In this document: piece by piece, positions 1 through 16,316 of the stretch
Numbering within the stretch: position 1 is the stretch's first letter
Layout: every line of letters starts with the position of its first letter
Origin: Salegentibacter echinorum
Lineage (GTDB): Bacteria > Bacteroidota > Bacteroidia > Flavobacteriales > Flavobacteriaceae
Direction: 5' to 3'
DNA: 37,202 bases
Assembly: GCF_900129445.1 (NCBI RefSeq)
Contig: NZ_FQVT01000022.1
Span: 1-37,202 of the forward strand
The notes under the pieces: model-generated
What the model was told of the DNA's origin: nothing
Databases searched by the model: none
Seen by the model: only the letters and a program-made list of their open reading frames with translations
Made by a program: the position numbers and the translations under genes

Positions 1-25
1 TAAACATTTCTTGTTCTTTACTCAT
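1..25 (-). CDS. Start of a leftward gene cut by the window edge
   Basis: On the minus strand an ATG at 25-23 opens a frame reading MSKEQEMF up to the window edge. A motif matching the Bacteroidota -7 consensus TAnnTTTG (TAGCTTTG, minus strand of 42-49) lies 16 bases upstream. A TTG at about the right -33 distance (minus strand of 70-72) supports a promoter there. Only eight codons are visible, so no function can be given. The start conflicts with the rightward AAA ATPase frame, which also stays open to the left edge; both cannot be fully coding. Confidence 0.4.
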
Positions 26-41
26 TGTAGTTATTTTTGAG

Positions 42-72
42 CAAAGCTATATCCAGGATTGCACTCTAGCAA
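42..72 (-). promoter_or_regulatory. Candidate leftward promoter (-7 TAGCTTTG, -33 TTG)
   Basis: On the minus strand, TAGCTTTG (42-49) matches TAnnTTTG exactly. TTG at 70-72 is about 20 bases upstream, which is the spacing used by the Bacteroidota primary sigma factor. Transcription would start near 37, about 12 bases before the ATG at 25. It lies inside the open frame of the AAA ATPase on the other strand. Confidence 0.4.
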
Positions 73-191
73 TACGTGCTTGGTGGGGTGGATACGATAT
101 AAAGAAGTTTCTGAAAGAATTTGAAGTCAGTTTTAAATCTTATTTTTTAAAAATATTTAGTGATACTACCTGGAGAGGGAATAAAAAAAGC

Positions 192-1019
192 TTGAATGAC
201 AAACTGTTTATTTTAGAGGAGAAGATAATCCTTCAAGTGGAGAATGATCGGGTATTTTTACTTTTTGAAACTATGGATGGGACGCTTCTAAAGAAAATCA
301 AAGACTTTGTTCCGAGATTTCATAAAAAGAAGCAATCTAAGCCGGAAATATGTGTGATTATTAATGACAGGCAAAGCTTAGCTACAAGAAAAATCAAGTT
401 TAAAAAGCCAGATTTAAACCTTGAAGAAAATTATGCCGATGATTTCCCTTTAGTACACCAACAAATAAAGGAACAACTAAAAAAGAAAAAGGAGAGCGGA
501 CTATTCCTCTTACATGGAAAACCCGGTACCGGCAAGAGTACTTATATTCGCTATCTCATAAAAACCATAAAAAAGAAAACCATTTTTCTTTCGCCAAGAA
601 CGGCGGGAAGCCTGGATAATGTAGAAATGACCAGGCTGTTACTGGAAAACCATAACTGTATCCTAATCATTGAAGATGCTGAAGAACTTATGGTTTCGCG
701 AAATCACCAGCGCAATTCAAACTTATCGACAATCCTAAACCTTACCGATGGAATTTTAGGCGAAAGCCTGGGAATTCAAATAATCGCAACATTTAATACC
801 GATGTTAAAAATATTGATGCCGCATTACTGCGCAAAGGTCGGCTTAAAACCACTTACGAATTTAAGCCGCTATCTGTTGCCAAAAGTGAGCAGCTTTTAA
901 AGAAAAAAGATATCGATATCCAGATAAATCATCCTATGAGCCTGGCCGAAATTTATCATTTTGATGCACAAAATAAAATTCAGCAAGAACCTGCTACAGC
1001 GATGGGATTTGCGAAATAA
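192..1019 (+). CDS. AAA+ ATPase of the classic AAA clade
   Basis: The 275-residue protein has a Walker A motif (G109-KPGTGK115-ST), a Walker B-like segment ending IIED (E161-D162), a sensor 1 Asn (N202) in TFNT, and arginine-finger residues in LLRKGR (R214, R217). This is the classic AAA module used by protein-remodelling ATPases such as BCS1 and the FtsH family; no protease or membrane segment is present. The listed start is a TTG codon. The frame remains open upstream to the left edge and encodes plausible protein from about 57 (including AIRAWWGGYDIKKFL), but has no ATG, GTG or TTG before 192. The real N-terminus may therefore be longer, begin at a rare codon, or be lost by truncation. It lies 124 bases before hsdM on the same strand, but a role in restriction is unproven. 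The final residues (QEPATAMGFAK) look like a natural end. Confidence 0.75.
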   Translation: MNDKLFILEEKIILQVENDRVFLLFETMDGTLLKKIKDFVPRFHKKKQSKPEICVIINDRQSLATRKIKFKKPDLNLEENYADDFPLVHQQIKEQLKKKKESGLFLLHGKPGTGKSTYIRYLIKTIKKKTIFLSPRTAGSLDNVEMTRLLLENHNCILIIEDAEELMVSRNHQRNSNLSTILNLTDGILGESLGIQIIATFNTDVKNIDAALLRKGRLKTTYEFKPLSVAKSEQLLKKKDIDIQINHPMSLAEIYHFDAQNKIQQEPATAMGFAK

Positions 1020-1114
1020 ATCATTAATGATCGCCTAATGTTAAAGGAACCTTTTTATTCTTTAAGATTTTATTTAGATTTACAAACAATCTGCACTACC
1101 CTACTCCGCAGATT

Positions 1115-1122
1115 TATTTTTG
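1115..1122 (+). promoter_or_regulatory. Candidate -7 promoter element for the hsdM operon
   Basis: TATTTTTG at 1115-1122 matches TAnnTTTG. Transcription would begin near 1128, leaving a leader of about 15 bases before the ATG at 1144. No good TTTG is visible at the expected -33 position, so support is partial. If used, this promoter rules out the TTG at 1120 as the hsdM start. Confidence 0.35.
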
Positions 1123-1143
1123 ACCCAAAATCAAGACCTATAC

Positions 1144-3513
1144 ATGACTCAACAAGTACACAATAAACTGGTATCTTTTATCTGGTCTATTGCAGATGAC
1201 TGCCTGCGCGATGTTTACGTTCGCGGAAAATACCGGGATGTAATTCTGCCTATGGTGGTTTTACGCCGCCTGGACGCTTTACTCGAACCTACCAAAGATG
1301 CCGTGATGGAAGAGCTGGCCTTCCAGCGTGACGAAGCCGGATTTACCGAATGGGACGAAGGCGGATTGCGTGAAGCTTCCGGCTATGTGTTTTATAATAT
1401 TAGCGATTTTACGCTTCAGAAATTACACAATACAGCCACCAATTCCCAGCAAATCCTTCAGGCGAATTTTGAAGATTACCTGAATGGTTTCAGTCCCAAT
1501 GTAAAAGAGATCATCGATAAATTTAAGCTGAAGAGCCAGATAAGGCATATGGCCAATAAGGATGTATTGCTGGATGTGCTGGAAAAATTCACTTCTCCGC
1601 ATATCAACCTTACGCCTTTTGAAAAAGAAGATCCCGATGGCAGGAAGCTTCCCGCACTTTCCAACCTGGGAATGGGGTACGTTTTTGAAGAGCTCATCAG
1701 GAAATTTAACGAAGAGAATAACGAAGAAGCGGGAGAGCACTTTACGCCAAGAGAGGTGATAGAATTGATGACGCACCTGGTTTTTGAGCCTATTAAAGAT
1801 AAACTGCCGCCGGTAATGACCATTTACGATCCTGCCTGCGGAAGTGGAGGAATGCTTACCGAAGCCCAAAATTTTATTAAGGATGAAGCAGGCCTTATAA
1901 GAGCTACCGGCGATGTGTATCTCTACGGAAAAGAGATCAACGACGAGACTTACGCCATTTGTAAAAGTGATATGATGATTAAGGGGAACAACCCTGAAAA
2001 TATTCGGGTGGGTTCCACACTTTCTACCGACGAATTTGCCGGCACCAGTTTCGACTTTATGCTTTCGAATCCGCCGTACGGAAAATCCTGGAGCAGTGAG
2101 CAGAAATATATCAAGGACGGGAAAGAGGTTATAGACCCTCGTTTTAAAATCCAGTTAAGAGATTATTGGGGAAATGAAGAAGAGGCCGATGCCATTCCGC
2201 GTTCTTCAGATGGGCAGTTGCTGTTCCTTATGGAGATGGTAAATAAAATGAAGCCGGAACACCAAAGTCCTTCCGGTTCCAGGATAGCTTCGGTACATAA
2301 TGGTTCCAGCCTGTTTACCGGGGATGCCGGTGGTGGAGAAAGTAATATTAGAAGGTATATTATTGAAAATGATCTTCTGGAAGCCATTATCCAGATGCCG
2401 AACAACCTTTTTTATAATACCGGTATTACAACCTATATATGGCTGTTGAGCAATAATAAAACTAAAGACCGAAAAGGCAAAGTACAGCTGATAGATGGCG
2501 GACAGTTATACCGAAAACTGCGGAAAAATCTTGGGAATAAAAACTGCGAATTTTCTCCTGAACATATAAATGAGATCCTTAAGAATTATACCGAAATGCA
2601 GTCGGTAAGCCGAAAGATAGATCCTGAAACCAATGCTGAAATAGAAGGCCTGGCTTCGCAGGTCTTCGATAATGAAGATTTTGGCTATTACAAGGTTACT
2701 ATTGAAAGGCCAAAAAGATTAAAAGCTCAGTTTACGACAGAAAAAATTGAAGAACTTCGCTACGATAAACAATTAAAGGAACCTATGCAATGGGCTTTTA
2801 ATGAATTTGGCGATGAGGTTTATACTAAACTGAAAGAACACGAAAAAGAGATCCTGGCCTGGTGCGAGAAAAACGACCTGAATCTAAGCAGTAAAAATCG
2901 TAAAAAACTGCTGAGTTCCAAAACCTGGAAAAAACAGAAAGACCTTCTGGAATTAGCTGAAACGCTGCATAAGGTAATTGGCGAAAAAGAATATGCTGAT
3001 TTCAATTTGTTTAAAAAAGAAGTAGATGCGAAGCTGAAAGAATTAAAGCTGAAACCCGGAGCTTCCGAAAAAAATGCAGTATTTGGTGCGATTAGCTGGT
3101 ATGATGCCGAAGCTAAAAAAGTAATTAAAAAGAAGCTAAAATTAAGCGGTGAAAAACTGAGTAATTTACTGGCGCATTTAAATTGTAAAGAAGAAGACCT
3201 GGCCCATTTTGGTTATTTCCCTTCCGGAAAGCCCGGAGAATATTTTGTTTACGAAACCGAAAGCGACCTAAGAGATTACGAGAATGTACCTTTAAAAGAC
3301 CAAATTCACCAGTACTTTTTAGAAGAAGTAAAACCTCATGTGGAAGAAGCCTGGATAGATCTTGATAAGACAAAAATTGGCTACGAGATAAGCTTTAATA
3401 AATATTTCTATCGCCATACACCATTGCGCTCCTTAGATAAAGTTGCTCAGGAGATTCTGGAGCTGGAAGAGAAGAACGAAGGTTTAATTATGGATATTTT
3501 AAACCTGGCCTAA
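1144..3513 (+). CDS. hsdM: Type I restriction-modification DNA methyltransferase subunit HsdM
   Basis: HsdM transfers a methyl group from S-adenosylmethionine to adenine N6 in the site read by HsdS, and forms the core of the M2S and R2M2S complexes. Numbered from ATG 1144, the 789-residue protein has an N-terminal helical HsdM_N region, the AdoMet-binding motif DPACGSGG (from D229), and the catalytic motif NPPY (N309-Y312), which marks N6-adenine methylases. A Lys-rich C-terminal region of about 250 residues makes it longer than the 529-residue EcoKI HsdM; such extensions are common in Bacteroidota. A longer reading from TTG 1120 exists, but ATG 1144 is preferred because it gives the usual N-terminus and because 1115-1122 looks like a promoter element. 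The stop codon directly abuts the hsdS ATG, implying translational coupling. Base composition is richer in GC than the cargo genes further on. Confidence 0.95.
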   Translation: MTQQVHNKLVSFIWSIADDCLRDVYVRGKYRDVILPMVVLRRLDALLEPTKDAVMEELAFQRDEAGFTEWDEGGLREASGYVFYNISDFTLQKLHNTATNSQQILQANFEDYLNGFSPNVKEIIDKFKLKSQIRHMANKDVLLDVLEKFTSPHINLTPFEKEDPDGRKLPALSNLGMGYVFEELIRKFNEENNEEAGEHFTPREVIELMTHLVFEPIKDKLPPVMTIYDPACGSGGMLTEAQNFIKDEAGLIRATGDVYLYGKEINDETYAICKSDMMIKGNNPENIRVGSTLSTDEFAGTSFDFMLSNPPYGKSWSSEQKYIKDGKEVIDPRFKIQLRDYWGNEEEADAIPRSSDGQLLFLMEMVNKMKPEHQSPSGSRIASVHNGSSLFTGDAGGGESNIRRYIIENDLLEAIIQMPNNLFYNTGITTYIWLLSNNKTKDRKGKVQLIDGGQLYRKLRKNLGNKNCEFSPEHINEILKNYTEMQSVSRKIDPETNAEIEGLASQVFDNEDFGYYKVTIERPKRLKAQFTTEKIEELRYDKQLKEPMQWAFNEFGDEVYTKLKEHEKEILAWCEKNDLNLSSKNRKKLLSSKTWKKQKDLLELAETLHKVIGEKEYADFNLFKKEVDAKLKELKLKPGASEKNAVFGAISWYDAEAKKVIKKKLKLSGEKLSNLLAHLNCKEEDLAHFGYFPSGKPGEYFVYETESDLRDYENVPLKDQIHQYFLEEVKPHVEEAWIDLDKTKIGYEISFNKYFYRHTPLRSLDKVAQEILELEEKNEGLIMDILNLA

Positions 3514-4845
3514 ATGGAAGTTTTAAAAGAAAAAGCACAGCTACAAAGATATACTGCTTATAAGGATTCGGGAGTAGAATGGCTGGGTGAGGTTCCGGAG
3601 CATTGGGAAAGCGTAAGAATGAAATTTCTTTACACTGATTACTCAGAGAAAAACAAGAAAGATGAAGAACTTCTTTCCGTAACGCAGGATAAAGGAGTAG
3701 TTCCGAGAAGTTGGGTTGAAAACAGAATGGTAATGCCTTCTGGAAATTTGGAGTCATTTAAGTTTATTCAAAAAGGAGATTTTGCTATAAGCTTAAGATC
3801 ATTCGAAGGTGGTTTGGAGTATTGTCATCATGACGGAATAATCTCACCAGCTTATACAGTTTTAAAACAAAGACGAAAAGATCTGGAATCGTCTTATTAC
3901 AAATACCTTTTTAAAAGCCATTCCTTCATTTCTGAACTGCAAACAAGTGTCGTTGGAATTAGAGAGGGAAAAAATATCAGCTTTAATGAACTTTCATATT
4001 CATTAATGCCCATTCCTAGACCAGAAGAACAAACCGCCATAGCCAATTTCCTGGATAAAAAATGCGGCAAGATCGATACTGCCATAACGCAAAAGCAAAA
4101 ATTGATCGAACTTTTAAAAGAGCGCAAGCAGATCGTTATTCAAGAATTGGTTACCGGTAAAAAAGTTTGGAATAAAGAAAAAAATGCCTGGATTGAGCCT
4201 GTCGAAGTCAGGGATTCCGGCGTGGAATGGATTGGGGAGATCCCGGAGCATTGGGAGGTGAAAAGACTTAAAAATGTTTGTAGAATCAATTTGAATTCAC
4301 TACCCGAAACAACACCTAAAAATTATGAATTTCAATACGTAGATATAGGGAGTGTATCTTTTGAAAAAGGTGTAACAGTAACTGAAACTTATAAATTTAA
4401 GTCAGCTCCATCTAGAGCTCGTCGAATTGCAAAAACCGGAGATACTGTAATTAGCACAGTAAGAACCTATTTAAAGGCAATCGATTTTGTTGATGAAGTG
4501 AAATCTGCTTATATATATTCTACTGGTTTTGCAGTACTTCAACCGGAGTCAATTGTTTATCCAGAATTTTTAGCATTCTTAGTTAAAAGTAATTCATTTA
4601 CTGATCAAGTAACTATTAATTCTAAGGGGATGAGTTACCCAGCTATTAATAGTACAGATTTAAGTAACCTTTTTATGGTGCATAGTGACTATGGTACTCA
4701 AAAAATGATAGTAAGATATTTTAAAGAAGAATCAGCTAAGTTGGAAAAATCCATCAATCTCAATCTTAAACAAATCGAAAAATTAAGGGAATATAAGAGC
4801 AGTTTAATAGACGCGGCGGTGACGGGGAAGATAAAGGTTTCGTAA
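3514..4845 (+). CDS. hsdS: Type I restriction-modification specificity subunit HsdS
   Basis: HsdS reads the bipartite DNA target and holds the two HsdM subunits. The 443-residue protein has the usual half-repeat layout. Each target recognition domain opens with a near-identical segment: GVEWLGEVPEHWE near residue 19 and GVEWIGEIPEHWE near residue 236. The central conserved helix follows RPEEQTAIANFLDKK (about 169-215). A second conserved helix ends the protein with IEKLREYKSSLIDAAVTGK. Recognition domain 1 (about 30-165) and domain 2 (about 250-385) are visibly more AT-rich than the conserved segments, as expected if these domains are exchanged by recombination. The ATG follows the hsdM stop with no gap. 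No inverted second hsdS copy lies nearby, so no shufflon is evident. The target sequence cannot be predicted from this reading. Confidence 0.95.
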   Translation: MEVLKEKAQLQRYTAYKDSGVEWLGEVPEHWESVRMKFLYTDYSEKNKKDEELLSVTQDKGVVPRSWVENRMVMPSGNLESFKFIQKGDFAISLRSFEGGLEYCHHDGIISPAYTVLKQRRKDLESSYYKYLFKSHSFISELQTSVVGIREGKNISFNELSYSLMPIPRPEEQTAIANFLDKKCGKIDTAITQKQKLIELLKERKQIVIQELVTGKKVWNKEKNAWIEPVEVRDSGVEWIGEIPEHWEVKRLKNVCRINLNSLPETTPKNYEFQYVDIGSVSFEKGVTVTETYKFKSAPSRARRIAKTGDTVISTVRTYLKAIDFVDEVKSAYIYSTGFAVLQPESIVYPEFLAFLVKSNSFTDQVTINSKGMSYPAINSTDLSNLFMVHSDYGTQKMIVRYFKEESAKLEKSINLNLKQIEKLREYKSSLIDAAVTGKIKVS

Positions 4846-4864
4846 TTTTAAAAAAAACTATCCA

Positions 4865-6991
4865 ATGAGCAAAACAATTAGTCGACATCTTAATAGATTT
4901 TTACTCGATCCTAATAATTATCGATTTATTGATAATAAAGATTACCGATCAGTCGAAGAAGGAGATATTTCCAATCCAAGAATTCAGGAGAGAACTTTTA
5001 ATTTATTAGCTGGCAAGAACAACGAAAATATCTTAGACCTAATAAAAAGCTTTAAATCCAATGGTATTCTAAAAGACCCTATCCAGGTAAAAGAACTACC
5101 AGATGGCAATTATTTAGTTGTAGAAGGAAATCGAAGAACTGCCGCCCTAAAACAACTGTATAGAGATTTTCAGGAAGCTAAGGATACAGGAAAAATGGAA
5201 GAAAAGGACTTCAAGAGTATTGAAGTCGTTTTAATTTCTGATGAAAGTCCGGTGGAACATTTAATTACAATGGGCATTCATCATATCAGCGGTAAAAGGA
5301 AATGGAGTCCCGTAAATCAAGCACAACTCATTCGGGATCTCGTAGAAAAATATAAAATACCTGAGGCGGATGTTTGTGATTCCTTAGCAATTACAAAACA
5401 TAACTTAAAAAGAAGCCTAAGAACTTTAGCTTTAATAGATAGATATAAGGCAAGCGATTTCGGAGATCAGTTTCAGACCAATATGTATTCGGTATTTGAA
5501 GAAATTATTAAAAATACAAAAGTAAAAGCTTGGTTACAATGGAGTGATTCTACAATGAGTCCCGAGAATTCATTAAATGAAGAAAGATTATTTCAATGGA
5601 TTTCAACAGAATATACTACTGAAGAAAATGAAATTGATGAAGAGGTAGAAATAACCAAAGAACCAATAATAACTAAAAGTCATGAGATTAGAGAATTGTC
5701 AAAATTCATTGATGATCCTGAAGCTGTGGATAAAATGGAAAACTCCAGAAGCATTACGGAAGCCTTTGCACTTAGTGATGCAGTTGGAGAGTCTAGATTA
5801 AAAAATGCTATGCAAAGCATATCTAAGGAAGTAAATACTGCCTTCCAGTTTAGTGAATATCTAAAGGATGATGATTATCAACAAATTGAACATTTAAAAA
5901 TAAAGTTAGATAGGCTTATTCCTAGTTTTAATTCAAATGCTGTTGTTTCTGCTGGATACAGTACTAAACAATATTTCTTGTCGATTTCTTCTCATTTCGA
6001 TAGTGTGGAAATTAACAAGTATAAAAAATTGAAAAACACATTTTTAAGAAAAACAGGTCGTGTAAATATAATAGCAGGAGGAAACAATAGTGGGAAAACC
6101 TCTTTACTAGAAGCGATATATTTACAAGCTAATTTAAATGATGTTCATGCCTTAATTGAATTAGAAAGAATTAGAGGCAATTTCGGTGAAGAAATACCTT
6201 CTAATTGGATTGATGAAATTTTTCAAGATGAAATAATTATTTCCTCTGTATTTAACGAAACAGAAAGTGCTCTGGAAATAGCTTATGAACAGACAGATGA
6301 ACATATTGATAAGAGTAACTACATTAAATCTATAATCTGTCAAGCTCAAGTAAAAAATGATTTTCTGGACAGTAAAATGCATCTTTATGCAAATAGAGAA
6401 CCTACTCTATATTATGATGAGGTAAAAAAACTTTGTACTGCTGCTATAAGTAGTCCGTTTCGATATACACCAAAACTTCTTGAGAGAGCTCATGCTAAAG
6501 CAATAGAAGAACAATATTTAACTAAAATCATTTCATTCATTAGAAAATATATAGATCCCAAAATACTGAAAATTGAATTGACGACAATAGATAAAATTAA
6601 GCGTTTTATGGTCTCACTTGAAAATTCTGATTTAGCTCTCGATCTCACCCAATATGGAGAAGGTGTTCAGAGAGTCTTCGAGATTGGTCTTTTAATCGGG
6701 TATTGTAAAAATGGAGTTCTCTGTGTCGATGAAATTGACAGTGCAATTCATAAAAATCTTTTAATCGATTTCACTGCTTTTATTCAAAAACTTGCAGATG
6801 AATTTAATGTGCAGGTATTTTTAACAACTCATAGTAAAGAATGTATTGATGCATTCGTACAGAATAATTACCCTGATGATAATTTGATTGCATATGCTTT
6901 GTCCAATGAGGAAGAAAGCACAAAAGCTAAATTTCTGGAAGGAAATAAACTCAAGTCTCTTGTTGAATCCATTAATATTGATATAAGATAG
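4865..6991 (+). CDS. ParB-domain protein fused to an OLD/AAA_15-like ABC ATPase
   Basis: The N-terminal part (about residues 50-130) is a ParB/sulfiredoxin-like domain with the box VVEGNRRTAAL (G88-NRR91), equivalent to the GERR nucleotide motif of ParB. A helical segment follows (about 135-195, from SPVNQAQLIRDL) that resembles the ParB HTH region. The C-terminal half is an ABC-type ATPase with Walker A AGGNNSGKTS (G405-S413), a signature-like GEGVQR, Walker B GVLCVDEID (D622, E623) and an H-loop TTHS (H656). The two ATPase halves are separated by a long insert, as in OLD-family and AAA_15 proteins. It starts 19 bases after hsdS and ends one base before a TOPRIM gene, matching the ATPase-plus-TOPRIM layout of PARIS (AriA/AriB) and other OLD-related systems. 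The inferred role is a DNA- or inhibitor-sensing ATPase that controls the TOPRIM partner. The ParB fusion is not part of canonical AriA. Base use is more AT-rich than in hsdM. Confidence 0.85.
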   Translation: MSKTISRHLNRFLLDPNNYRFIDNKDYRSVEEGDISNPRIQERTFNLLAGKNNENILDLIKSFKSNGILKDPIQVKELPDGNYLVVEGNRRTAALKQLYRDFQEAKDTGKMEEKDFKSIEVVLISDESPVEHLITMGIHHISGKRKWSPVNQAQLIRDLVEKYKIPEADVCDSLAITKHNLKRSLRTLALIDRYKASDFGDQFQTNMYSVFEEIIKNTKVKAWLQWSDSTMSPENSLNEERLFQWISTEYTTEENEIDEEVEITKEPIITKSHEIRELSKFIDDPEAVDKMENSRSITEAFALSDAVGESRLKNAMQSISKEVNTAFQFSEYLKDDDYQQIEHLKIKLDRLIPSFNSNAVVSAGYSTKQYFLSISSHFDSVEINKYKKLKNTFLRKTGRVNIIAGGNNSGKTSLLEAIYLQANLNDVHALIELERIRGNFGEEIPSNWIDEIFQDEIIISSVFNETESALEIAYEQTDEHIDKSNYIKSIICQAQVKNDFLDSKMHLYANREPTLYYDEVKKLCTAAISSPFRYTPKLLERAHAKAIEEQYLTKIISFIRKYIDPKILKIELTTIDKIKRFMVSLENSDLALDLTQYGEGVQRVFEIGLLIGYCKNGVLCVDEIDSAIHKNLLIDFTAFIQKLADEFNVQVFLTTHSKECIDAFVQNNYPDDNLIAYALSNEEESTKAKFLEGNKLKSLVESINIDIR

Positions 6992-6992
6992 T

Positions 6993-7799
6993 ATGCCTAA
7001 ATTAAGTATTGTATTATGTGAAGGACCTCATGATGTAGCTTTTATTTCTAAAATATTAAAAGCTGATCTATTCAAAAGTAAAGAGAACTTACCTATTAAT
7101 GATTATCCTCAGCCTATTTCATCCATGTTAATAAATGAGGTAAAGGAAACAAATATTGAAGAACTTAAATTCCAGGAATTAAAAAAAGCCTTGTTGCCTA
7201 GTGCCATTTTAAAGAAGGAGGAACACTTCATTTTTCTTTACGCAATTGGAGGAGATTCTAGGAAAGATATTCGTAAAGCCTTTCTTTCAACTTTGATTTC
7301 TTTTATTCCGGAAGAAGGAGAAATTGAAATTCTTCCAACGGATACAGAATTAAACTTATTATACATTTTGGATGCCGATAATTTGGGAATACCCGCAAGA
7401 ATAAATCAGATTAATGAGGAGTTGGAAAATGAGATAGGGGTAAAACCATTTAATGGAGTTGGACTATCAAAATATAAAACACTAGGATTAGGAATATATA
7501 TTTTTTCGGCAGAACATGGAGTGGGAAAGTTGGAAGATCTTTTAATGCCCCTCATGGAAGAGAATAATGAGGATATTTTTAAAGAAGCAAAAACATTTTA
7601 CAATAATTTTTATGATGTAGATCGAGATAAAAGAAAAAAAAGTGATCAAAGTAAAGCAGCAATTGGTATTTCTGGACAGCTTCAAAAAGCAGGAATGACT
7701 AATAGCGTAATAATTGGTCAGTCCGATTACATTACATCGGAAAAGATCAAAAGGAATGAGAAATGCCAAGAAATATTAACCTTTTTCAGTAAGATTTAA
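6993..7799 (+). CDS. TOPRIM-domain protein, probable nuclease partner of the ParB-ATPase
   Basis: The 268-residue protein starts with a TOPRIM motif, SIVLCEGPHDVAFISK (Glu10, Asp14), where the Glu is the family's catalytic acid. LYILDADNLG (D127-x-D129) supplies the metal-binding DxD. Between them lies an inserted region, with an acidic and helical C-terminal part after it. TOPRIM domains with this spacing occur in OLD nucleases, DUF3226 and DUF4435 proteins, including the AriB effector of PARIS, which cleaves tRNA. The ATG lies one base after the stop of the ATPase gene, so the two are almost certainly co-translated. The catalytic acids are intact, so activity is plausible. I cannot tell from sequence alone whether the target is DNA or RNA, or which TOPRIM family it belongs to. 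Confidence 0.8.
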   Translation: MPKLSIVLCEGPHDVAFISKILKADLFKSKENLPINDYPQPISSMLINEVKETNIEELKFQELKKALLPSAILKKEEHFIFLYAIGGDSRKDIRKAFLSTLISFIPEEGEIEILPTDTELNLLYILDADNLGIPARINQINEELENEIGVKPFNGVGLSKYKTLGLGIYIFSAEHGVGKLEDLLMPLMEENNEDIFKEAKTFYNNFYDVDRDKRKKSDQSKAAIGISGQLQKAGMTNSVIIGQSDYITSEKIKRNEKCQEILTFFSKI

Positions 7800-7885
7800 G
7801 TTAGGGAGTCTTAGTAGGTCTTCTATTAACATGCTCAAAATAGAAAAAGATTGAAAATAAGTAAAAACTATTTTAAAATTAATGA

Positions 7886-8479
7886 ATGACCAAAGAACAA
7901 GTTTTAATTGAAATGGATGAATGCCTCGATTGTGGCAGTGTTTCTGGTTTTGAAGAACAATTCGAAAATCTATTAAAAATTTATAACGATGAGGAAGTCA
8001 GTTTAATCCTTGCCCAATATCTGATGGAAAAATATATGCGCTTTAAAGCCGATGGCCTGGCCAGTTATATGGAAGCAGCTATCCGAATGCGGCCTAACCT
8101 GGCAATGATAAACCATCCTGAAAACCCGCTTTTTAAATTGGCGATAATTAGAGGTTCAAAAGATCTATATGATTGTTATATGGAAGAAGCTGTTTTTCCA
8201 TTTTTATCCAATGTTGTTGAGGATGAACATCAGGATCATTACTACGAATTACTGTCGGTCGCTGAGAAAATGGACGAGATGATCTTTCAGAATTACGAAC
8301 CTCGCATAAAAGGTTTGCATTATAATAGCGGTGTAAAAGGGATAGAAAGGCAAGATAGAATATCTATAAGTCAGGAAGATTATGCAATTATTGAAAATAC
8401 GATGGAAGCTTACAATTCAATTGTTGGCAGAAAAGAGATTTTGGAGGATTTAAATAAGAGAATTGAACAAATTGATTAA
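7886..8479 (+). CDS. Unrecognised helical protein inside the restriction island
   Basis: I do not recognise this 197-residue protein. It looks soluble, acidic and mostly helical, with no signal peptide, membrane segment or obvious catalytic motif. The first two thirds (SLILAQYLMEKYMRF, AAIRMRPNLAMI) read like stacked helices of a repeat or adaptor fold. Its first part is richer in GC than the flanking genes and its last third is AT-rich. It starts 86 bases after the TOPRIM gene and ends two bases before the first DUF262 gene, so it is more likely transcribed with the DUF262 pair. A possible ATG four bases earlier (7882) is out of frame. An accessory, immunity or sensor role for the neighbouring restriction genes is possible but not shown. 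Confidence 0.75.
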   Translation: MTKEQVLIEMDECLDCGSVSGFEEQFENLLKIYNDEEVSLILAQYLMEKYMRFKADGLASYMEAAIRMRPNLAMINHPENPLFKLAIIRGSKDLYDCYMEEAVFPFLSNVVEDEHQDHYYELLSVAEKMDEMIFQNYEPRIKGLHYNSGVKGIERQDRISISQEDYAIIENTMEAYNSIVGRKEILEDLNKRIEQID

Positions 8480-8481
8480 GA

Positions 8482-9939
8482 ATGGAAGAAAATTTCTCAT
8501 CATCTCCAGAGACTATTGAAAAAGACTCTCCAATGGAAATTAAAGAAAATCATGACGAGAGGCTTGAAGAAAAAATTAAAGTAACAAGTTGTTCTATTGC
8601 AGATCTTTTTCAGCTTCAAAACGTTGCCTTGCCAGGAACGAATATCTCTGGAAAACTTTCGATACCTGAATACCAGCGACCATACGTTTGGAGAAAAAGA
8701 CAATTATCGAAATTAGTTGATGATTTTTCGAAGTTTTTTAATTCTTACGAGCTCGGGGACCCCCATTATTACTTGGGTAGTATTATTATTCACCAGACGG
8801 ATGAGAATTTAAATATTATTGATGGCCAACAAAGAATTACTTCTTTATTACTCTTAGCTGAAATCCAAAACTTCTTATCAAAACCTAAAGTTACTTATTC
8901 GTCACCGCAAAGTATTTTTAGAATAAAAGAGAATATAGAATTTTTAAAATCTAAAAAGCTTCCTGCAATTAATTGGAGGCTTCTCAACGTAACTTTAGTA
9001 ATTACAGATAATGAAGATGATGCCTATACTTTTTTTGAAACTCAAAATACTGGTGGTGTAAGACTCTCAGGTGCAGATATCATTAAATCCCATCACCTAA
9101 GGGCAATAAAAGATAAGAAGTTATTAAATAATAAGGCTCAAAATTGGGAAAGCAACAGTAATGATAATACAAAATATGTCATCGAATTGCTTTGCAAAGC
9201 ACGATGTTGGAACATCGTTTTTTGGGAAAATTTTCCTTTTTACAAACACAAACGAGCAATTAAAAATAAGGTTGTAGAAAAATTCACGGAAAATACAGAA
9301 AAAGAGTCCCGCAATATATCTTTCATTCAGGCCGAAATCGAAAAAACAAATTTTCAGGAAAACATTCGCCTAACTTCTCATTTGAAATCTCTAAGGCAAC
9401 CACTCTACGATGGAGAGAATTATATCGATTTTCTAACAGAATATGTTGAAACCTATGAAGTATTATTTTTGAAAAATGAGGATTACCGAATTGATCCAAG
9501 ATTTTATGATTTTAGAAATAAATTAATAAGTGGTAAGGACGGTACAATATTTTTAAAAGAATTATTTGAAATACTACTTCTCTGCTATGTGAGTAAATTT
9601 GGATATAAGGATATTTATGAATTTTCACTGTGGACATTTCGCTATGTTTATTCTCTTAGAGTCATAAAAAAGAGAACAGTGAGAGAGGACACTATGACCA
9701 GTTTTGTAAAAGAAACTTTTATTCTTGATAAGGTATTTAGCACCTATTCGCATAGAGAAGTGATAAATATTCTTAAAAAATACTCCTATAAATTTAATGA
9801 TGAAAATTGTGGGGACAACAATGTAAAAGGAAGGTATATTCGAGGATTGGGAAAATATTTTACAATTAACTTTTCGAATGGAATCGTAACTAAAGATTTC
9901 GATAGTAAACTAAAAAAAGATATATATGGAAAAATGTAA
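8482..9939 (+). CDS. DUF262 (GmrS-like) protein without HNH domain
   Basis: DUF262 is the ParB/Srx-fold NTPase domain of type IV restriction enzymes such as GmrSD, BrxU and SspE, which use nucleotide hydrolysis to control a DUF1524 nuclease. This 485-residue protein has the family box IPEYQRPYVWRKRQL (about residues 60-74), the NTPase box IIDGQQRIT (D114-R118), and the helical sequence FFETQNTGGVRLSGADIIKSH further on. The C-terminal half is helical, and I see no H-x-x-P/N-rich DUF1524 motif in it. It probably depends on the next gene, which has that domain and whose start codon overlaps its end by 14 bases. The N-terminal 30 residues are polar and probably disordered. It may be the S-like half of a split or duplicated GmrSD system. 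Confidence 0.85.
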   Translation: MEENFSSSPETIEKDSPMEIKENHDERLEEKIKVTSCSIADLFQLQNVALPGTNISGKLSIPEYQRPYVWRKRQLSKLVDDFSKFFNSYELGDPHYYLGSIIIHQTDENLNIIDGQQRITSLLLLAEIQNFLSKPKVTYSSPQSIFRIKENIEFLKSKKLPAINWRLLNVTLVITDNEDDAYTFFETQNTGGVRLSGADIIKSHHLRAIKDKKLLNNKAQNWESNSNDNTKYVIELLCKARCWNIVFWENFPFYKHKRAIKNKVVEKFTENTEKESRNISFIQAEIEKTNFQENIRLTSHLKSLRQPLYDGENYIDFLTEYVETYEVLFLKNEDYRIDPRFYDFRNKLISGKDGTIFLKELFEILLLCYVSKFGYKDIYEFSLWTFRYVYSLRVIKKRTVREDTMTSFVKETFILDKVFSTYSHREVINILKKYSYKFNDENCGDNNVKGRYIRGLGKYFTINFSNGIVTKDFDSKLKKDIYGKM

Positions 9940-11896
9940 TCCTCTTCAATTCAAGAGTGAAATAGTTTGTCTTCAAGATCTTTCAACAGCAATATTTTCC
10001 ATTCCTACTTATCAACGTCCATATGTTTGGAAAATTGAACAAATTGATAAGCTTTTGAAAGATTGCGCTAATGCATTTTCCTTTAATAAAGATAAGGGTT
10101 ATTTCATAGGTACTATACTTACTGACAAAAAGGACAACAATTATGAGTTAATTGATGGACAACAACGGTTTACTACCTTGTGGCTTATTGCGTTTGTTTA
10201 CTATAAAAAAGGCATAGAGAGCAAAATCACAAATTTTCTTAGAGACGGTGATAACTTAAGGCTGGATTTCGAAATTAGAAAAGAGGTAAGTAATTATTTT
10301 GAATTGCTACTGGAACATCCAGATGAGGCATTGAAAAAATTTGATTCAGAAGAACTTGAAGAAAAACCTTATCTAATTAATATAATAAAAGCGGTTACAA
10401 TTATTAATGGAATATTAGAGACCCTTATAAACCCAAAGACTAAACAACTAATTGATTTTAAAGATTTTGGTGATTATTTATACACCCAGCTCAAAATTGT
10501 AAACAATATTACTCCTCAAAATGAAAAGTTTGATTTAAATAAATTATTTGCCACGGTAAATAATTCAGGAATTCAATTAGAACAAACAGATATTGTAAAA
10601 GCTAACCTGCTTAGCAAAATAAAAACAGACAAAATTTTATTCAGCAAAATTTGGGAATCATGTGAGAATATGAGTGAATATTTCGAAAGAAATGTCCGAA
10701 AAGTTTTTGCTGCTACTAATTGGAAAAACTTAAAGCCACAAGATTTTGCGGTCTACAATAAAGATATCTTTTTGTTCAAACAAGAAGAAGAAATAGATGA
10801 ATTAGCACTGGGCTATAGTATTCAAGATATCGATGAAGGAAAGGCAGATGAATTTGCTATTAATTCTCCATTGGAGGAAAAGAATAAGCAATACGAGATA
10901 AACTGTGACTCTATCCTAAATTTCGGCCAATTACTTCTTCACACATATCGAATCTACTTATACAGAAATAGAAAACCAGATTTTAATGTACCTTTTCATA
11001 TAGATCGGTTAATAAGCATTTTTAAAAACTTACAGGAAGATACAGAAGAAAATATTAAAAGTTTTTTTGAACTTTTATGGGAGGTCCGTTATGCATTTGA
11101 TTCTAACATCGTGAAATGGATAACAGATTTAGACACTAAAGAAAAACACCTAGAGTTAAGTGTCGTTACAAAAAATGATCAAAAGGAAAACTACACCTAT
11201 TTCGGTCGCAATGTAATTGAAAAATCTGAGCAGTTAATGTTGCAGAGTGTACTATATTTTACCGGTGATTATCTCCGTCAATATTGGCTCACCCCATATT
11301 TATATTTTTTACTTGTAAACAAGGAAAATGATTTGAATCAATTAGAAAAAATTGATAATCAAATGTCACTAACGAAGAAAACTGACAAGGAAGCTAGTTT
11401 CTTGTTGCTTAACCCAAACTACAACCTTTCAAGGGATTTTATTCTAAAAGATTACTTAAATGGGAATTTAGGTACTTCATTTCAACATTATTGGTTTCTT
11501 AAGCTTGAATATATTCTCTGGAAAAATTGGGAAGATCAAAAAGATCCGAAGTTCCAGAAATATAGAATTACTTCCAAAAACTCAGTAGAACATATATACC
11601 CACAAAACCCAGAGTTTGCGAAACGCCTGGAAAAACGGCATATGGATAATTTCGGAAATTTAGTATTGCTAAGCGTAAACCAGAATTCGGAATATAGCCG
11701 TAAAGCGGTAAATGTAAAGCGAGAAGAGTTTAGAAACAAAACAGGTTATGACACATTAAAATCCTACCACATATTTAATAGTTATACTGCGGAATGGAAG
11801 GAAACAACAATAGAATTGCACAAAGAAGAAATGATAGATCTATTTATAGCCCATTACGAAACTTCAAGTTTTTTTAATTCTCCTTTTCAAATTTGA
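9926..11896 (+). CDS. DUF262-DUF1524 (GmrSD-like) type IV restriction enzyme
   Basis: The 656-residue protein carries both halves of a GmrSD-type enzyme. An N-terminal DUF262 domain contains IPTYQRPYVWKIEQI (about residues 25-39) and ELIDGQQRFTTLW (D77-R81). A C-terminal DUF1524 nuclease domain contains VEHIYPQNPE (His556) and MDNFGNLVLLSVNQN (N578, N585), the HNH-like residues of this family. Known relatives cleave DNA carrying modified bases such as glucosylated hydroxymethylcytosine, or phosphorothioated DNA, or act as companions of BREX and Ssp systems. Its ATG lies 14 bases inside the preceding DUF262 gene in another frame, so the two are translationally coupled. The nuclease motifs look intact. 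It is separated by 102 bases from hsdR, which has GC-richer sequence. Confidence 0.88.
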   Translation: MEKCNPLQFKSEIVCLQDLSTAIFSIPTYQRPYVWKIEQIDKLLKDCANAFSFNKDKGYFIGTILTDKKDNNYELIDGQQRFTTLWLIAFVYYKKGIESKITNFLRDGDNLRLDFEIRKEVSNYFELLLEHPDEALKKFDSEELEEKPYLINIIKAVTIINGILETLINPKTKQLIDFKDFGDYLYTQLKIVNNITPQNEKFDLNKLFATVNNSGIQLEQTDIVKANLLSKIKTDKILFSKIWESCENMSEYFERNVRKVFAATNWKNLKPQDFAVYNKDIFLFKQEEEIDELALGYSIQDIDEGKADEFAINSPLEEKNKQYEINCDSILNFGQLLLHTYRIYLYRNRKPDFNVPFHIDRLISIFKNLQEDTEENIKSFFELLWEVRYAFDSNIVKWITDLDTKEKHLELSVVTKNDQKENYTYFGRNVIEKSEQLMLQSVLYFTGDYLRQYWLTPYLYFLLVNKENDLNQLEKIDNQMSLTKKTDKEASFLLLNPNYNLSRDFILKDYLNGNLGTSFQHYWFLKLEYILWKNWEDQKDPKFQKYRITSKNSVEHIYPQNPEFAKRLEKRHMDNFGNLVLLSVNQNSEYSRKAVNVKREEFRNKTGYDTLKSYHIFNSYTAEWKETTIELHKEEMIDLFIAHYETSSFFNSPFQI

Positions 11897-11998
11897 CTAG
11901 CCATTTGCTTGATTGTAATTACACCATAGAACCTTAAATCCCTCAAAATCAAGGAGTTTTTATTTGACTCGAATTCGGAAAACATAAATTAACCAACA

Positions 11999-14900
11999 AT
12001 GCCAACCCAAACTAACGAACAAGCCTTAGAAGCCGCCATCCAGGAAACACTTTCCGGTATTACCATAGAGAGGATCAAAGAGCAGGATCCTAATGCGAAC
12101 ATCGCAGAGGAGTCTGAGCAGTATCTTTCAGGTAATGGTTACTACATTGGTGATCCCGATGATTTTGATGCAAAATATGCCATCGATACAAGAAGGTTCT
12201 GGAGTTTCCTTGAAGAAACGCAAAAGGTGGAACTGGAAAAGCTGCAAAGGCATGGAGACTGGAAATTAAAGATCCTGGAACGCCTGGACAGGATGATCAA
12301 AAAATACGGGGTGTTGCGTATTTTAAAGAAAGGCCTGGACGTAGATGATGCACATTTTACTTTATTTTACCAGGCTCCGCTGGCCAGCAGCAGCGACCGG
12401 GTAAAAAAACTTTTTAATAACAATCAATTTAACGCTACCCGGCAATTACGATATTCTGTTGAGAATCCGCGGGAGGAGATTGATATCGTGATTTTTATAA
12501 ACGGCCTACCTGTTATTACCGCAGAATTAAAAAATCACTGGACCGGACAGAATGCTAAAGTACACGCCCAAAAGCAATACAAGTTTGATCGCGATATAAA
12601 ACAAACTTTGTTAAACTTCGGTCGATGCCTGGTACATTTCGCGGTGGATACCGATGAGGTTTATATGACCACCAAATTAAATGATGGCAATACCTTTTTT
12701 CTGCCTTTTAATAAGGGTGATAATAACGGCAAAGGAAATCCGGTAAATCCCAACGGACATAAAACAGCTTACCTCTGGGAAGAAGTGCTTACTAAAAAAA
12801 GCCTGGCGAATCTTATTCAGCATTTTGTTAGGCTGGACGGGAAAGCTAAAGATCCTTTGAACACAAGAACCCTGTTCTTCCCAAGGTATCATCAAATGGA
12901 TGTGGTACGGCAAATCATAGATCACGCCGGCAAAAATGGTGTAGGGCAAACTTATCTTATTCAGCATTCGGCAGGTTCTGGTAAATCGAATTCCATTACC
13001 TGGGCAGCATTTCAACTTATTGAAACCTATCCCGAGCTAGAAGGAATCCACGGCAGCAAAGGAATGGAAAAACCTTTATTTGATTCTGTAATCGTAGTAA
13101 CCGATAGGCGCTTACTGGATAAACAGATACGAGATAATATTAAAGATTTTTCTGAAGTCAAAAATATAGTAGCTCCCGCCTACTCTTCCAAAGAATTAAG
13201 GGAGAGCCTGGAAAGCGGAAAAAAAATCATCATTACTACTATTCAGAAGTTTCCATTTATTATTGATGGTATTTCAGATTTGAGTGAGAAACGTTTTGCG
13301 GTAGTTATAGATGAGGCGCATAGTTCACAAAGTGGTTCTGCGCATGATAAGATGAACCAGTCTATGGGGCAGCAAGTACAGGAGGAAGATGACGAAGATG
13401 TGCAGGATAAGATCATAAAAGCTATGCAGGCCAGGAAGATGCGCGGAAATGCCTCCTACTTAGCTTTTACTGCCACACCTAAAAACAATACTTTAGAGAA
13501 ATTTGGCGTAAAACAGCAAGACGGTTCCTTTAAGCCTTTTCATCTATATTCTATGAAACAAGCTATTGAAGAAGGCTTTATCCTGGATGTACTGGCGAAT
13601 TATACCACTTATAAAAGTTATTATGAAATCGAGAAATCTATAGAAGATAATCCCCTATTCGATTCCCAAAAAGCACAGAAGAAATTAAAGGCTTACGTAG
13701 AAAGTCATCAACAAACCATAGATACGAAAGCCGAAGTGATCCTGGATCATTTTATTCCTAATATCGTCAATAAGAAAAAACTTAAAGGCAAAGCAAAGGG
13801 GATGGTGGTCACGCAAAGTATAGTTTCTGCCATTCGGTATTATAAAGCTTTAAGCAGGATTCTGGAACAAAGAGGAAATCCCTTCAGGATTTTAATTGCT
13901 TTTTCCGGCTCTAAAACCGTAGATGGAATTGAATATACCGAAGCTGATATGAATGGTTTTGGTGAAAAAGATACCAAAGAAAATTTCGATAAAGACGAAT
14001 ACCGCATTTTAGTGGTTGCGAATAAATACCTTACCGGATTTGATCAACCAAAGCTTACCGCGATGTATGTAGACAAAAAACTGCAGGGTGTTTTGGCCGT
14101 TCAGGCTTTATCAAGATTAAACAGGTCGGCCGATAAGCTGGGGAAGAAAACCGAAGATATTTTTATCCTGGATTTCTTTAATTCTACCGACGATATCAGG
14201 AAATCCTTTGACCCTTTTTATACAGCCACTTCTTTAAGCGGAGCTACAGATATTAATGTACTTCACGAAATAAAAGAAACTTTAGATGAAACCGGAATTT
14301 ACGAACAGCAAGAAGTTGAACTTTTCTGTGAGAAATTCTTTATGAAAGAAGATGCCCAGAAATTGAGTCCGATCATCGATGCGGCTGCATATCGCTTTAA
14401 TACTGAACTGGAACTTGAAGATGAGGACAAAGCCGATTTTAAGATCAAAGCCAAGCAGTTTGTGAAAATTTACGGACAGATGGCGGCAATTATGCCGTAT
14501 GAGATGCTTACCTGGGAAAAATTGTTCTGGTTCCTGAAATTCCTTATTCCGAAATTGATCGTAAAAGATAAAGATGCTGATAATTTGGATGAGTTACTGG
14601 AATCGGTAGATCTATCTACTTATGGATTGGAGCGTACTAAATTAAATGAGGTTATAGGTTTGGATGCATCAGAAACAGGTTTGGATCCGCAAAATCCAAA
14701 TCCACGTGGCGCGCATGGTGAAAAGGAAGAAGACATCCTGGAAAATATTATCAGGAATTTCAATGAAAGATGGTTTCAGGGCTGGGAAGCAACGCCAGAT
14801 GAGCAGCGAATGAAGTTTATCCAGTTGAGTAAACATATTCAGCAACACCAGGATTTTCAAGATAAGGTGGCCAATAATGCCGATCAGCAAAATAGCGACC

Positions 14901-15055
14901 TCGCCCTCAAAAGAATTATTGAAGACGTGATGCGCAAACAAAGAAAAAACGAACTTGACCTCTATCGCCTGTATGCCAAAGACGATGCTTTCTATCAGGC
15001 ATTTTTTGATACGATGAAGAGGATGGTGAGTGCGGGGGAGAGTAGGAATTTTTAA
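11999..15055 (+). CDS. hsdR: Type I restriction enzyme endonuclease/translocase subunit HsdR
   Basis: HsdR pumps DNA toward the bound M2S complex and cuts at a distance. The 1018-residue protein has a PD-(D/E)xK nuclease domain (D162 in EIDIVIF, E176-L-K178 in AELKNH). Two RecA-like helicase domains follow: Walker A SAGSGKSNS (K329), DEAH box VIDEAHSSQSG (D438-H441), motif III AFTATPK, motif V VVANKYLTGFDQP and motif VI QALSRLNR. A C-terminal helical region for binding the methylase follows, ending near SAGESRNF. All catalytic motifs look intact, so the enzyme is probably active. It reads in the same direction as hsdM and hsdS but lies 7.1 kb downstream of hsdS, with five cargo genes between. 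The 102-base gap before it contains no obvious terminator, so long read-through or a separate promoter is possible. Confidence 0.95.
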   Translation: MPTQTNEQALEAAIQETLSGITIERIKEQDPNANIAEESEQYLSGNGYYIGDPDDFDAKYAIDTRRFWSFLEETQKVELEKLQRHGDWKLKILERLDRMIKKYGVLRILKKGLDVDDAHFTLFYQAPLASSSDRVKKLFNNNQFNATRQLRYSVENPREEIDIVIFINGLPVITAELKNHWTGQNAKVHAQKQYKFDRDIKQTLLNFGRCLVHFAVDTDEVYMTTKLNDGNTFFLPFNKGDNNGKGNPVNPNGHKTAYLWEEVLTKKSLANLIQHFVRLDGKAKDPLNTRTLFFPRYHQMDVVRQIIDHAGKNGVGQTYLIQHSAGSGKSNSITWAAFQLIETYPELEGIHGSKGMEKPLFDSVIVVTDRRLLDKQIRDNIKDFSEVKNIVAPAYSSKELRESLESGKKIIITTIQKFPFIIDGISDLSEKRFAVVIDEAHSSQSGSAHDKMNQSMGQQVQEEDDEDVQDKIIKAMQARKMRGNASYLAFTATPKNNTLEKFGVKQQDGSFKPFHLYSMKQAIEEGFILDVLANYTTYKSYYEIEKSIEDNPLFDSQKAQKKLKAYVESHQQTIDTKAEVILDHFIPNIVNKKKLKGKAKGMVVTQSIVSAIRYYKALSRILEQRGNPFRILIAFSGSKTVDGIEYTEADMNGFGEKDTKENFDKDEYRILVVANKYLTGFDQPKLTAMYVDKKLQGVLAVQALSRLNRSADKLGKKTEDIFILDFFNSTDDIRKSFDPFYTATSLSGATDINVLHEIKETLDETGIYEQQEVELFCEKFFMKEDAQKLSPIIDAAAYRFNTELELEDEDKADFKIKAKQFVKIYGQMAAIMPYEMLTWEKLFWFLKFLIPKLIVKDKDADNLDELLESVDLSTYGLERTKLNEVIGLDASETGLDPQNPNPRGAHGEKEEDILENIIRNFNERWFQGWEATPDEQRMKFIQLSKHIQQHQDFQDKVANNADQQNSDLALKRIIEDVMRKQRKNELDLYRLYAKDDAFYQAFFDTMKRMVSAGESRNF

Positions 15056-15082
15056 AAATTAAAAAACGATAAATAGGCATTT

Positions 15083-15814
15083 ATGGCAAAATATTTACGA
15101 ACATCGAGTATTACTGCAGAACTTGAAAATCTAATTCGAGATGCTAAAGAAAAGGTCTATATAATTAGCCCTTATTTGAAGCTTTCCGATCATATTCGAC
15201 AGCTATTAAATGATAAGGAAAGAGAGAAAGTAGAGGTAAGGATAATCTTTGGCAAACAAGAACTTGCACCAACAGAGATGGAGTACCTAGAATCTTTAAG
15301 TTATGTCCGTCTTTACTTCTTCAAAAATCTACATGCAAAATGTTATCTGAATGAATCTAAAATGATAATTGCTTCTATGAATCTATATGAGTTTTCTCAG
15401 CAACACAATCGAGAAATGGGCATTTTAATTGATACTGTAGTTGAGCACGATAGAGAGGCTTATGAAGATGCCATAAAAGATGTAGATTCTATTCTTCATA
15501 ATAGCGAAGATTTTTCTTATGTAAAAGCACCAAAACGACAGCCAAATAAGGAGGCCGAAAAAATCAAACCTAAGGAAACATCGAACAATTTTTCAAATTC
15601 TAAGTACTTAACTACAAAAGAACTTTCTAAAAAGACTGGGCTAAGTAGTAGAAAAGTCAATTCTGTATTAGTGAAAAATGAATTAATGTATAAGAAAGAA
15701 GATGATTGGTATTCAACAGAAAAAGGAAATAAGCTAGGGGCAATTCAAAAGGAAGGAGCTTATGGCAAATTTATAATATGGCCAGAAGAAATAGCAGACA
15801 ATATTCTTAAATAA
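15083..15814 (+). CDS. PLD-family (single HKD) protein with C-terminal HTH-like domain
   Basis: The 243-residue protein has a PLD-type domain in residues 1-150: a helix-strand start typical of PLDc_2 (KVYIISPYLKLSDHI), then one HKD motif, LHAKCYLNESKMIIASMNL, with H84, K86, E91 in place of Asp, and ASMN in place of GSxN. Single-HKD members act as dimers and are usually nucleases (Nuc, BfiI) or phosphodiesterases. A Lys-rich linker follows, then about 70 residues beginning LTTKELSKKTGLSSRKVN, which looks like a winged helix with a terminal domain like those of phage antirepressors. It starts 27 bases after hsdR and is probably cotranscribed. A nuclease accessory to the island is likely; the substrate is unknown. 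Confidence 0.75.
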   Translation: MAKYLRTSSITAELENLIRDAKEKVYIISPYLKLSDHIRQLLNDKEREKVEVRIIFGKQELAPTEMEYLESLSYVRLYFFKNLHAKCYLNESKMIIASMNLYEFSQQHNREMGILIDTVVEHDREAYEDAIKDVDSILHNSEDFSYVKAPKRQPNKEAEKIKPKETSNNFSNSKYLTTKELSKKTGLSSRKVNSVLVKNELMYKKEDDWYSTEKGNKLGAIQKEGAYGKFIIWPEEIADNILK

Positions 15815-15832
15815 ATCTAAAAAAAACACAGC

Positions 15833-16039
15833 ATGAAAGAAAGTATATCTATTGAAAATGTACAGCAAGTTAAGAACGTAGGAGAGTTAAAAAAAATATT
15901 GGAGAAATATTCTGATAATACAGAGCTTGTAGCTAATACTCATAATGGAGTAACTGAATTATATCTTGGTACCACGCATCCAATTGGCGATAGAGATACC
16001 GAAGATGAAACTCTACTAATATTTGGGGGCAAAGAATAG
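15833..16039 (+). CDS. Small acidic protein of unknown function
   Basis: This 68-residue protein starts 18 bases after the PLD gene, with an A-rich stretch before the ATG as is common in Bacteroidota. Residues 15-30 (VGELKKILEKYSDNTE) form a helix followed by a strand pattern, much like small phage-type proteins that begin with a predicted helix ending in an acidic turn. No cysteine cluster, membrane segment or catalytic motif is visible. I do not recognise a named family. It closes the same-strand run that begins at hsdM, so it could be a small partner or inhibitor of the PLD protein. Confidence 0.55.
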   Translation: MKESISIENVQQVKNVGELKKILEKYSDNTELVANTHNGVTELYLGTTHPIGDRDTEDETLLIFGGKE

Positions 16040-16109
16040 TAAATAGCCGATTTTCTAATTTTCCAACTATATTACACTTGGAATTAAGACTTTTCACTAG
16101 GTCAACTAT

Positions 16110-16316
16110 ATGAGCTTAGAAATCACCCACATCCAGGGCGGCGTGCGCGAATTTGAAAAAACCGGGGTTTACCCAGAATACCTGCTTTTCAACCTGCCCG
16201 GCACTAAACAAAGTTGGAGAGTGAAGGTCAAGAAAAAACCACAGACCGGTAATTTAAAAAGTAAAGAAGTGGTCGTCCATGAATACAGCTTTGACGGCCA
16301 CTTTTGTAAAAATTAG
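16110..16316 (+). CDS. Small basic hypothetical protein
   Basis: The 68-residue frame begins MSLEITHIQGG and ends with HEYSFDGHFCKN. It contains alternating hydrophobic residues typical of beta strands (YLLFNLPG, SWRVKVKKK, EVVVHEYSF) and a basic central stretch. Its composition is GC-richer than the genes before it. I know no family for it. It stands alone, 70 bases after the previous small gene and 253 bases before the sensor kinase, and could be the remnant of a larger protein. The protein-like strand pattern favours a real gene, but not strongly. Confidence 0.45.
   Translation: MSLEITHIQGGVREFEKTGVYPEYLLFNLPGTKQSWRVKVKKKPQTGNLKSKEVVVHEYSFDGHFCKN

Follow-up and report, generated by a model that had tools for sequence, protein, structure and literature searches.

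What role does a ParB-bearing ATPase play inside a restriction operon? In contig NZ_FQVT01000022.1 of Salegentibacter echinorum (RefSeq assembly GCF_900129445.1; the window, that is, the whole 37,202-nucleotide (nt) stretch analysed), two genes that we call M38A and M38B lie between hsdS and hsdR of a type I restriction-modification (RM) operon. M38A encodes a ParB-like module fused to an ABC ATPase, and M38B encodes a TOPRIM-type protein. A first-pass annotation of the DNA had suggested that this pair (M38AB) may guard the host RM system and could be a new PARIS-like subtype. Our profile comparisons identify the pair as a member of the catalogued candidate family PDC-M38, in its ParB-bearing branch, and we found that the hsdS-hsdR interval is an exchangeable slot taking unrelated systems. 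We consider it probable that M38AB is an autonomous two-gene anti-phage module, an ATPase sensor with a TOPRIM effector, carried as cargo of this slot. The pair and its parts are located as follows:

4865..6991, + strand: M38A, ParB-like module fused to an OLD/AAA_21-type ABC ATPase, 708 amino acids (aa), PADLOC PDLC04607
4865..5239, + strand: ParB-type N-terminal domain, residues 1-125 (boundary approximate), with GNRR at 5126-5137
5309..5452, + strand: ParB-type helix-turn-helix region, residues about 149-196, from hhalign and model helices
5921..5956, + strand: low-confidence linker between ParB module and ATPase, residues 353-364, with predicted local distance difference test (pLDDT) values under 50
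5990..6988, + strand: ABC ATPase domain, residues 376-708, with Walker A at 6077-6100, Walker B at 6728-6733 and H-loop at 6830-6832
6993..7799, + strand: M38B, DUF3226 TOPRIM-type protein, 268 aa, PADLOC PDLC04615
7020-7034 and 7371-7379, + strand: M38B motifs E10-D14 and D127-D129

The coordinates, frames and strand given by the first-pass annotation were right, and a single base separates the M38A stop from the M38B start, both on the + strand. Against the PADLOC library, M38A residues 3-708 aligned with positions 8-714 of PDLC04607 (PDC-M38A, 715 positions; E=1.7e-280), and M38B matched PDLC04615 (PDC-M38B; E=2e-83). Both genes were full-length matches, and PDLC04607 already contains the ParB part; at 362-383 positions, none of the four remaining M38A models listed could accommodate it. 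A new family was rejected because PDC-M38 covers the pair end to end, and the suggestion of a new subtype falls for the same reason: a catalogued system with a ParB domain exists, although PDC-M38 is itself a candidate only. We take PDC-M38 to originate from the Payne et al. 2024 preprint. The available text of PMC12988326 credits the PDC families to a "guilt-by-embedding" study, which is also cited in that of PMC12255303. In a literature search that had bioRxiv and most subscription papers outside its reach, we found no mention of "PDC-M38" or "DUF3226", and papers on ParB with TOPRIM, PARIS, bacteriophage exclusion (BREX) or phage defence yielded no description of the fusion.

We then examined how well the pair is conserved. 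Scanning genome contigs with a two-row alignment gave 55 loci and viral contigs gave one, for a total of 56 other ParB-bearing loci; because the two peptide patterns used on the genomes were both taken from the M38A N-terminus, the set is ParB-bearing by construction. M38B followed M38A in 52 of 57 loci (window included), the contig ending inside M38A in the remaining five, and the spacing was -4 to +6 nt in 44 of the 49 gaps measured. The motifs named in the first-pass annotation proved to be conserved. In the alignment of 52 full-length M38A sequences (at least 690 aa, window included; L067, L069, L070, L075 and L077 were left out here and from the tree), G88-N-R-R91, H140, G143, K411 (Walker A), D622 and E623 (Walker B) and H656 (H-loop) were each present in 52/52. 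Among 45 M38B sequences, E10 and D127 were present in 45/45, and D14 and D129 in 44/45. DPNN at M38A residues 15-18 was also invariant, which says less because DPNN was part of the search pattern. The ParB fusion is real, as had been claimed. In a second tree, which used the 17 of 19 ParB-less ATPases with at least 290 aa, one branch separated the 52 fused ATPases from these 17 (Shimodaira-Hasegawa-like approximate likelihood ratio test, SH-aLRT, 99), a pattern consistent with a single fusion of the ParB module to the ATPase. A single-protein scan of viral contigs found no M38A relative; the alignment scan found one locus (L080), in which M38AB lies downstream of a phage minor-tail-type gene. 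Given this viral contig, M38AB may also travel on phages or prophages. A plasmid tblastn search returned 122 records, of which none reached 80% query coverage; the 30 matches listed involved the ATPase half only.

The "ParB box" of the first-pass annotation held up as ParB homology and fell short in extent. In single-sequence searches, M38A matched ParB_N (E=1.9e-4, 21.8 bits, below the curated cut-off of 26.3) and TIGR00180 (E=2.1e-9, score 37.4, below the cut-off of 58.45). When 26 M38A relatives were compared by hhalign with a chromosomal ParB profile (own genome plus 8 kin), the probability was 93.5 (E=2.2e-7) over 160 columns, running through the helix-turn-helix to M38A residue 190; M38A is thus homologous to ParB of the ParABS type in both the N-domain and the helix-turn-helix. 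No ParA-like family was among the matches listed for the ten window genes scanned. The predicted model places helices at residues 149-162, 167-174 and 178-196 of this region. At E up to 1, a PDB search with the 26-row module profile listed 7 sequences; each was of ParB/Noc type and individually weak (E 0.011-0.13). Rather than a box, the ParB-like part is a module some 350 residues long that includes an N-domain and a helix-turn-helix.

The same module also occurs without the ATPase, at 12 places in 10 of 395 genomes of the phylum. A co-directional downstream gene of 276-341 aa accompanied it at 10 of the 12 places; when these ten partners were scanned with Pfam, three matched (Mrr_cat, D12 methyltransferase and Eco57I) and seven had no match. 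The stand-alone module once adjoins an Mrr-like restriction enzyme and once constitutes, with its D12 partner, PD-Lambda-5 A+B, which in that case (L102) sits between hsdS and hsdR. PD-Lambda-5 therefore resembles M38AB in position and in a related ParB-like N-terminus (PDLC03998, E=3.2e-8, M38A residues 1-120); it differs in having a D12 adenine methyltransferase as partner, and no ABC ATPase or TOPRIM was recognised in the L102 interval.

The ATPase region of M38A matched AAA_21/AAA_15 in Pfam. The predicted M38A model had a pLDDT of 88.5, with residues 353-364 the sole segment listed under 50, and the PDB structures closest to its ATPase were those of retron I-A, Rad50, SMC/cohesin, PtuA and OLD ATPases; single-sequence PDB searches gave nothing useful. 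The M38B model had a pLDDT of 93.4 and its best structural match was PH0156 (2p62, E=1.7e-4).

We next compared the pair with known systems. PARIS (AriA/AriB) likewise has an ABC ATPase and a TOPRIM protein on adjacent genes; M38A differs by its ParB module, and M38B is a DUF3226 protein matching no Ari model. AriA models matched M38A in the generic ATPase region alone (E 1.8e-18 and 5.2e-14), far more weakly than PDC-M38A. Membership of PARIS was rejected, since the 9 models that M38B matched at E up to 1 included no AriB or AriAB model; the PADLOC library presumably contains an AriB model. OLD and Gabija share the OLD-type ABC ATPase and the TOPRIM. In these systems both are on a single chain (available text of PMC10568477, which also calls PARIS class 4 OLD), whereas M38AB is two genes. 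No match to a GajB/UvrD-type helicase was found among the ten window genes scanned. PrrC is a single-chain anticodon nuclease whose effector domain is unrelated to that of M38B. Its likeness to the pair is that, with EcoPrrI, an effector gene lies inside a type I operon (accessible part of PMC12707154).

The surroundings of the pair in the window are as follows:

1120..3513, + strand: hsdM, type I methyltransferase subunit (Pfam and PADLOC model matches)
3514..4845, + strand: hsdS, specificity subunit (Pfam and PADLOC model matches)
4839..11985, + strand: exchangeable slot between hsdS and hsdR, bounded by comparison with relative G504
7886..8479, + strand: 197-aa open reading frame (ORF) of no recognised family, also in a congener's slot
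8482..9939, + strand: DUF262-DUF7834 protein, GmrS-like half of a type IV doublet (Pfam)
9926..11896, + strand: DUF262-DUF1524 protein, GmrSD-like half of the doublet (Pfam)
11999..15055, + strand: hsdR, type I restriction subunit (family and PADLOC matches)
15083-15814: PLD-like protein with a winged-helix end, after hsdR (weak DrmC-like match)

The gene order is therefore hsdM, hsdS, M38A, M38B, the 197-aa ORF, two DUF262 proteins, hsdR and the PLD-type protein, within an unbroken series of + strand genes spanning 192-15814. The earlier placement of the pair between hsdS and hsdR was correct, with the amendment that three further genes (7886-11896) separate M38B from hsdR.

To survey the interval, HsdR searches gave 14 other genomes of the family (149 searched, own included) and a DNA search gave 3 congeners with hsd matches (15 searched, own included); a fourth congener, G400, had a 30-base match alone. 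None of these 17 relatives of the hsd operon carried M38AB in the interval, so the survey that had been proposed went against the guard. The cargo was instead as follows, that of G472 and parts of that of G498 and G402 being named by similarity or Pfam alone:

Tiamat-type TmtA, 3/17: G504; G402 and G553, with further candidate genes
Menshen-type Nsn genes, 3/17: G480 and G552; G498 by NsnC and Pfam
DUF262 pairs, 2/17: G434; G472 by similarity to the window's pair
SoFic, 1/17: G492
RmuC-like protein, 1/17: G541
HATPase protein with small ORFs, 1/17: G463
Small ORFs, 1/17: G453
ORF with a weak PDC-M15A match, 1/17: G497
No ORF of 110 aa or more, 4/17: G454, G446, G524 and G522

Here we take Tmt genes to be Tiamat and Nsn genes to be Menshen. 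The exchange was sharpest in G504, whose DNA was 97% identical to the window over 4771-4838, broke off at 4838 and resumed at 11986; its HsdM and HsdR were 93% and 92% identical to those of the window, HsdS was 35% identical, and the slot held TmtA. The available text of PMC12255303, on other bacteria, proposes that a potential hotspot lies between hsdS and hsdR.

Several further observations concern the operon and its relatives. The 197-aa ORF matched no family in the library scans, and a search of 296 phylum genomes found only itself; a 67% identical protein precedes the TmtA gene in the slot of congener G553 (L159, 6564-7151). In L159 (596-4237), two frames of 369 and 408 aa make up hsdM, which a SoFic gene separates from hsdS. 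The PLD-like protein (15083-15814) is retained at 90% identity in G553. The DUF262 pair (8482-11896) resembles GmrS/GmrSD, a type IV restriction system of two genes reported in the accessible part of PMC12373910, where DUF262 is called homologous to ParB_n; with M38A, this makes three ParB-related proteins within one RM operon.

Outside the window, RM or BREX genes accompanied M38AB in 11 of the 56 other loci, so the pair recurs beside such genes in other genomes. The pair followed hsdS in four (L032, L035 and L074, in which hsdR follows, and L069, in which the contig ends), lay in or beside BREX genes in six and stood beside a type IIG-like methylase in one (L039). Among the BREX loci it was between pglX and pglZ in L026, L051, L058 and L073, after pglX up to the contig end in L056, and between pglZ and brxL in L078. 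In L026, M38B is separated from pglZ by a DpdF-like helicase of 1498 aa (13779-18275). On the M38A tree, the labels "RM/BREX seen" and "none" required 9 changes, at least 7 of them forced by supported branches, and clustering was weak (76/500 shuffles as low). These changes indicate that the embedding was gained or lost repeatedly, with loci of short flanks counted as "none". RM/BREX reference matches occurred at 0/19 ParB-less ATPase loci, where M38B was present at 2/19, versus 11/56 ParB-bearing loci (Fisher p=0.03), a contrast that we do not lean on because flanks differ and ancestry is shared.

We favour the defence-module reading because both genes match PDC-M38 over their full length, the catalytic motifs are conserved and the genes are tightly coupled. 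It is also favoured by the structural resemblance of the ATPase and TOPRIM and the homology of the ParB N-domain and helix-turn-helix; by the occurrence of the ParB module without the ATPase, beside an Mrr-like enzyme and in PD-Lambda-5; and by the recurrent position in type I RM and BREX operons, together with the other defence genes in the slot of relatives. M38A would act as the sensor, its ABC ATPase half keeping the putative TOPRIM nuclease M38B inactive. The ParB N-domain and helix-turn-helix may contact DNA, probably in a nucleotide-dependent manner. Infection would alter the DNA- or nucleotide-bound state of M38A, freeing or activating M38B, which might then cut nucleic acid (DNA or tRNA) and stop the phage or the cell.

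Several results weigh against this reading. M38AB is catalogued as a candidate, and its defence function is putative. Of the 31 loci that had 3 kb of flank on each side, nine had RM or BREX genes, and in 22 no such gene was found by the references used, which were drawn from the same loci and may miss other RM types. At loci without RM or BREX genes, the large neighbours chosen among the ORFs and scanned were mostly ordinary genes; near one such unnested locus, L036, lies a Ppl-like defence gene. Because most well-flanked loci lack RM/BREX genes, location is no uniform evidence of defence. The TOPRIM fold matches of M38B were weak, with an OLD TOPRIM at E=0.11 after unrelated entries, and a PDB search with a 45-row M38B profile came back empty at E up to 1. 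The predicted template modelling score (pTM) of M38A was 0.53, so its domain arrangement cannot be read from the model. In ParB proteins, the E-N of ENxxR and the GERR motif have a role in cytidine triphosphate (CTP) use. M38A has GNRR in 52/52 sequences, and hhalign aligned the E-N of ParB with M38A H140-I141 (H in 52/52, I in 51/52). With E-N replaced by H-I, ParB-type clamp behaviour should not be assumed.

Three other explanations were weighed. If M38AB were a guard of RM or BREX, M38A would sense phage anti-restriction proteins or the loss of the host RM complex and unleash M38B. The nesting after hsdS, in the window and four other loci, and within BREX in six loci on scattered tree branches would suit such a role, as would the analogies of PrrC in a type IC locus and of PARIS, which answers Ocr (available text of PMC12707154; the PARIS/PrrC analogy also in that of PMC12409363), and of PARIS-like OLD-ABC/TOPRIM pairs reported with BREX (accessible part of PMC12839542). 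Yet linkage was seen in 9/31 well-flanked loci and missing in 22/31, none of the 17 operon relatives holds the pair in the interval, and the slot also takes unrelated systems. Guarding RM as a general role was therefore rejected, and we consider a guard unlikely overall; by these analogies, it is possible where the pair is nested. The first-pass interpretation was thus supported in part: the ATPase-TOPRIM pairing and the ParB fusion stand, and the pair recurs in type I RM and BREX operons of other genomes. Alternatively, the slot may be a recombination hotspot for defence genes, M38AB sharing a promoter and transfer with HsdMSR and having no functional link to it. The conserved HsdM and HsdR of G504 beside a divergent HsdS and different cargo, the sharp homology breaks at 4838 and 11986, the Tiamat- or Menshen-type genes of congeners and the hotspot proposed for other bacteria all point this way, and we judge it slightly favoured, although it leaves the recurrence in the middle of BREX operons unexplained unless these are hotspots as well. 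This explanation concerns location and is therefore compatible with an autonomous module.

The ParB module could instead be an operon repressor that gates expression and is no phage sensor. Its helix-turn-helix homologous to ParB and the + strand gene run of 192-15814 would fit; however, the fusion persists at loci where no RM or BREX genes adjoin the pair (e.g. L025 and L071), so that its general role is not to repress an RM operon, and no operator-like repeat was recognised among the few inverted repeats listed in window positions 1-1200 and 4700-8600. We regard this explanation as very improbable.

ParB proteins are known as DNA-segregation clamps. A bolder form of the autonomous-module reading, which we hold as a doubtful conjecture, is that M38A works as a ParB-type DNA clamp, or as a DNA-bound switch, coupled to an OLD-type ATPase; its ParB domain would read a DNA or nucleotide state on incoming phage DNA and release the TOPRIM nuclease. 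The ParB module would then be an interchangeable sensor, joined to a TOPRIM (via the ATPase), to an Mrr-like nuclease or to the adenine methyltransferase of PD-Lambda-5. Should a ParB module be the sensor of a nuclease-based immune module, ParB-type DNA or nucleotide sensing would gain a concrete, testable link to phage defence, and the presence of ParB-like proteins beside restriction genes might be explained. The contents of the hsdS-hsdR interval in operon relatives offer a simple route to further defence modules, and M38AB would stand out by its ParB part, should this prove to sense DNA or nucleotides.

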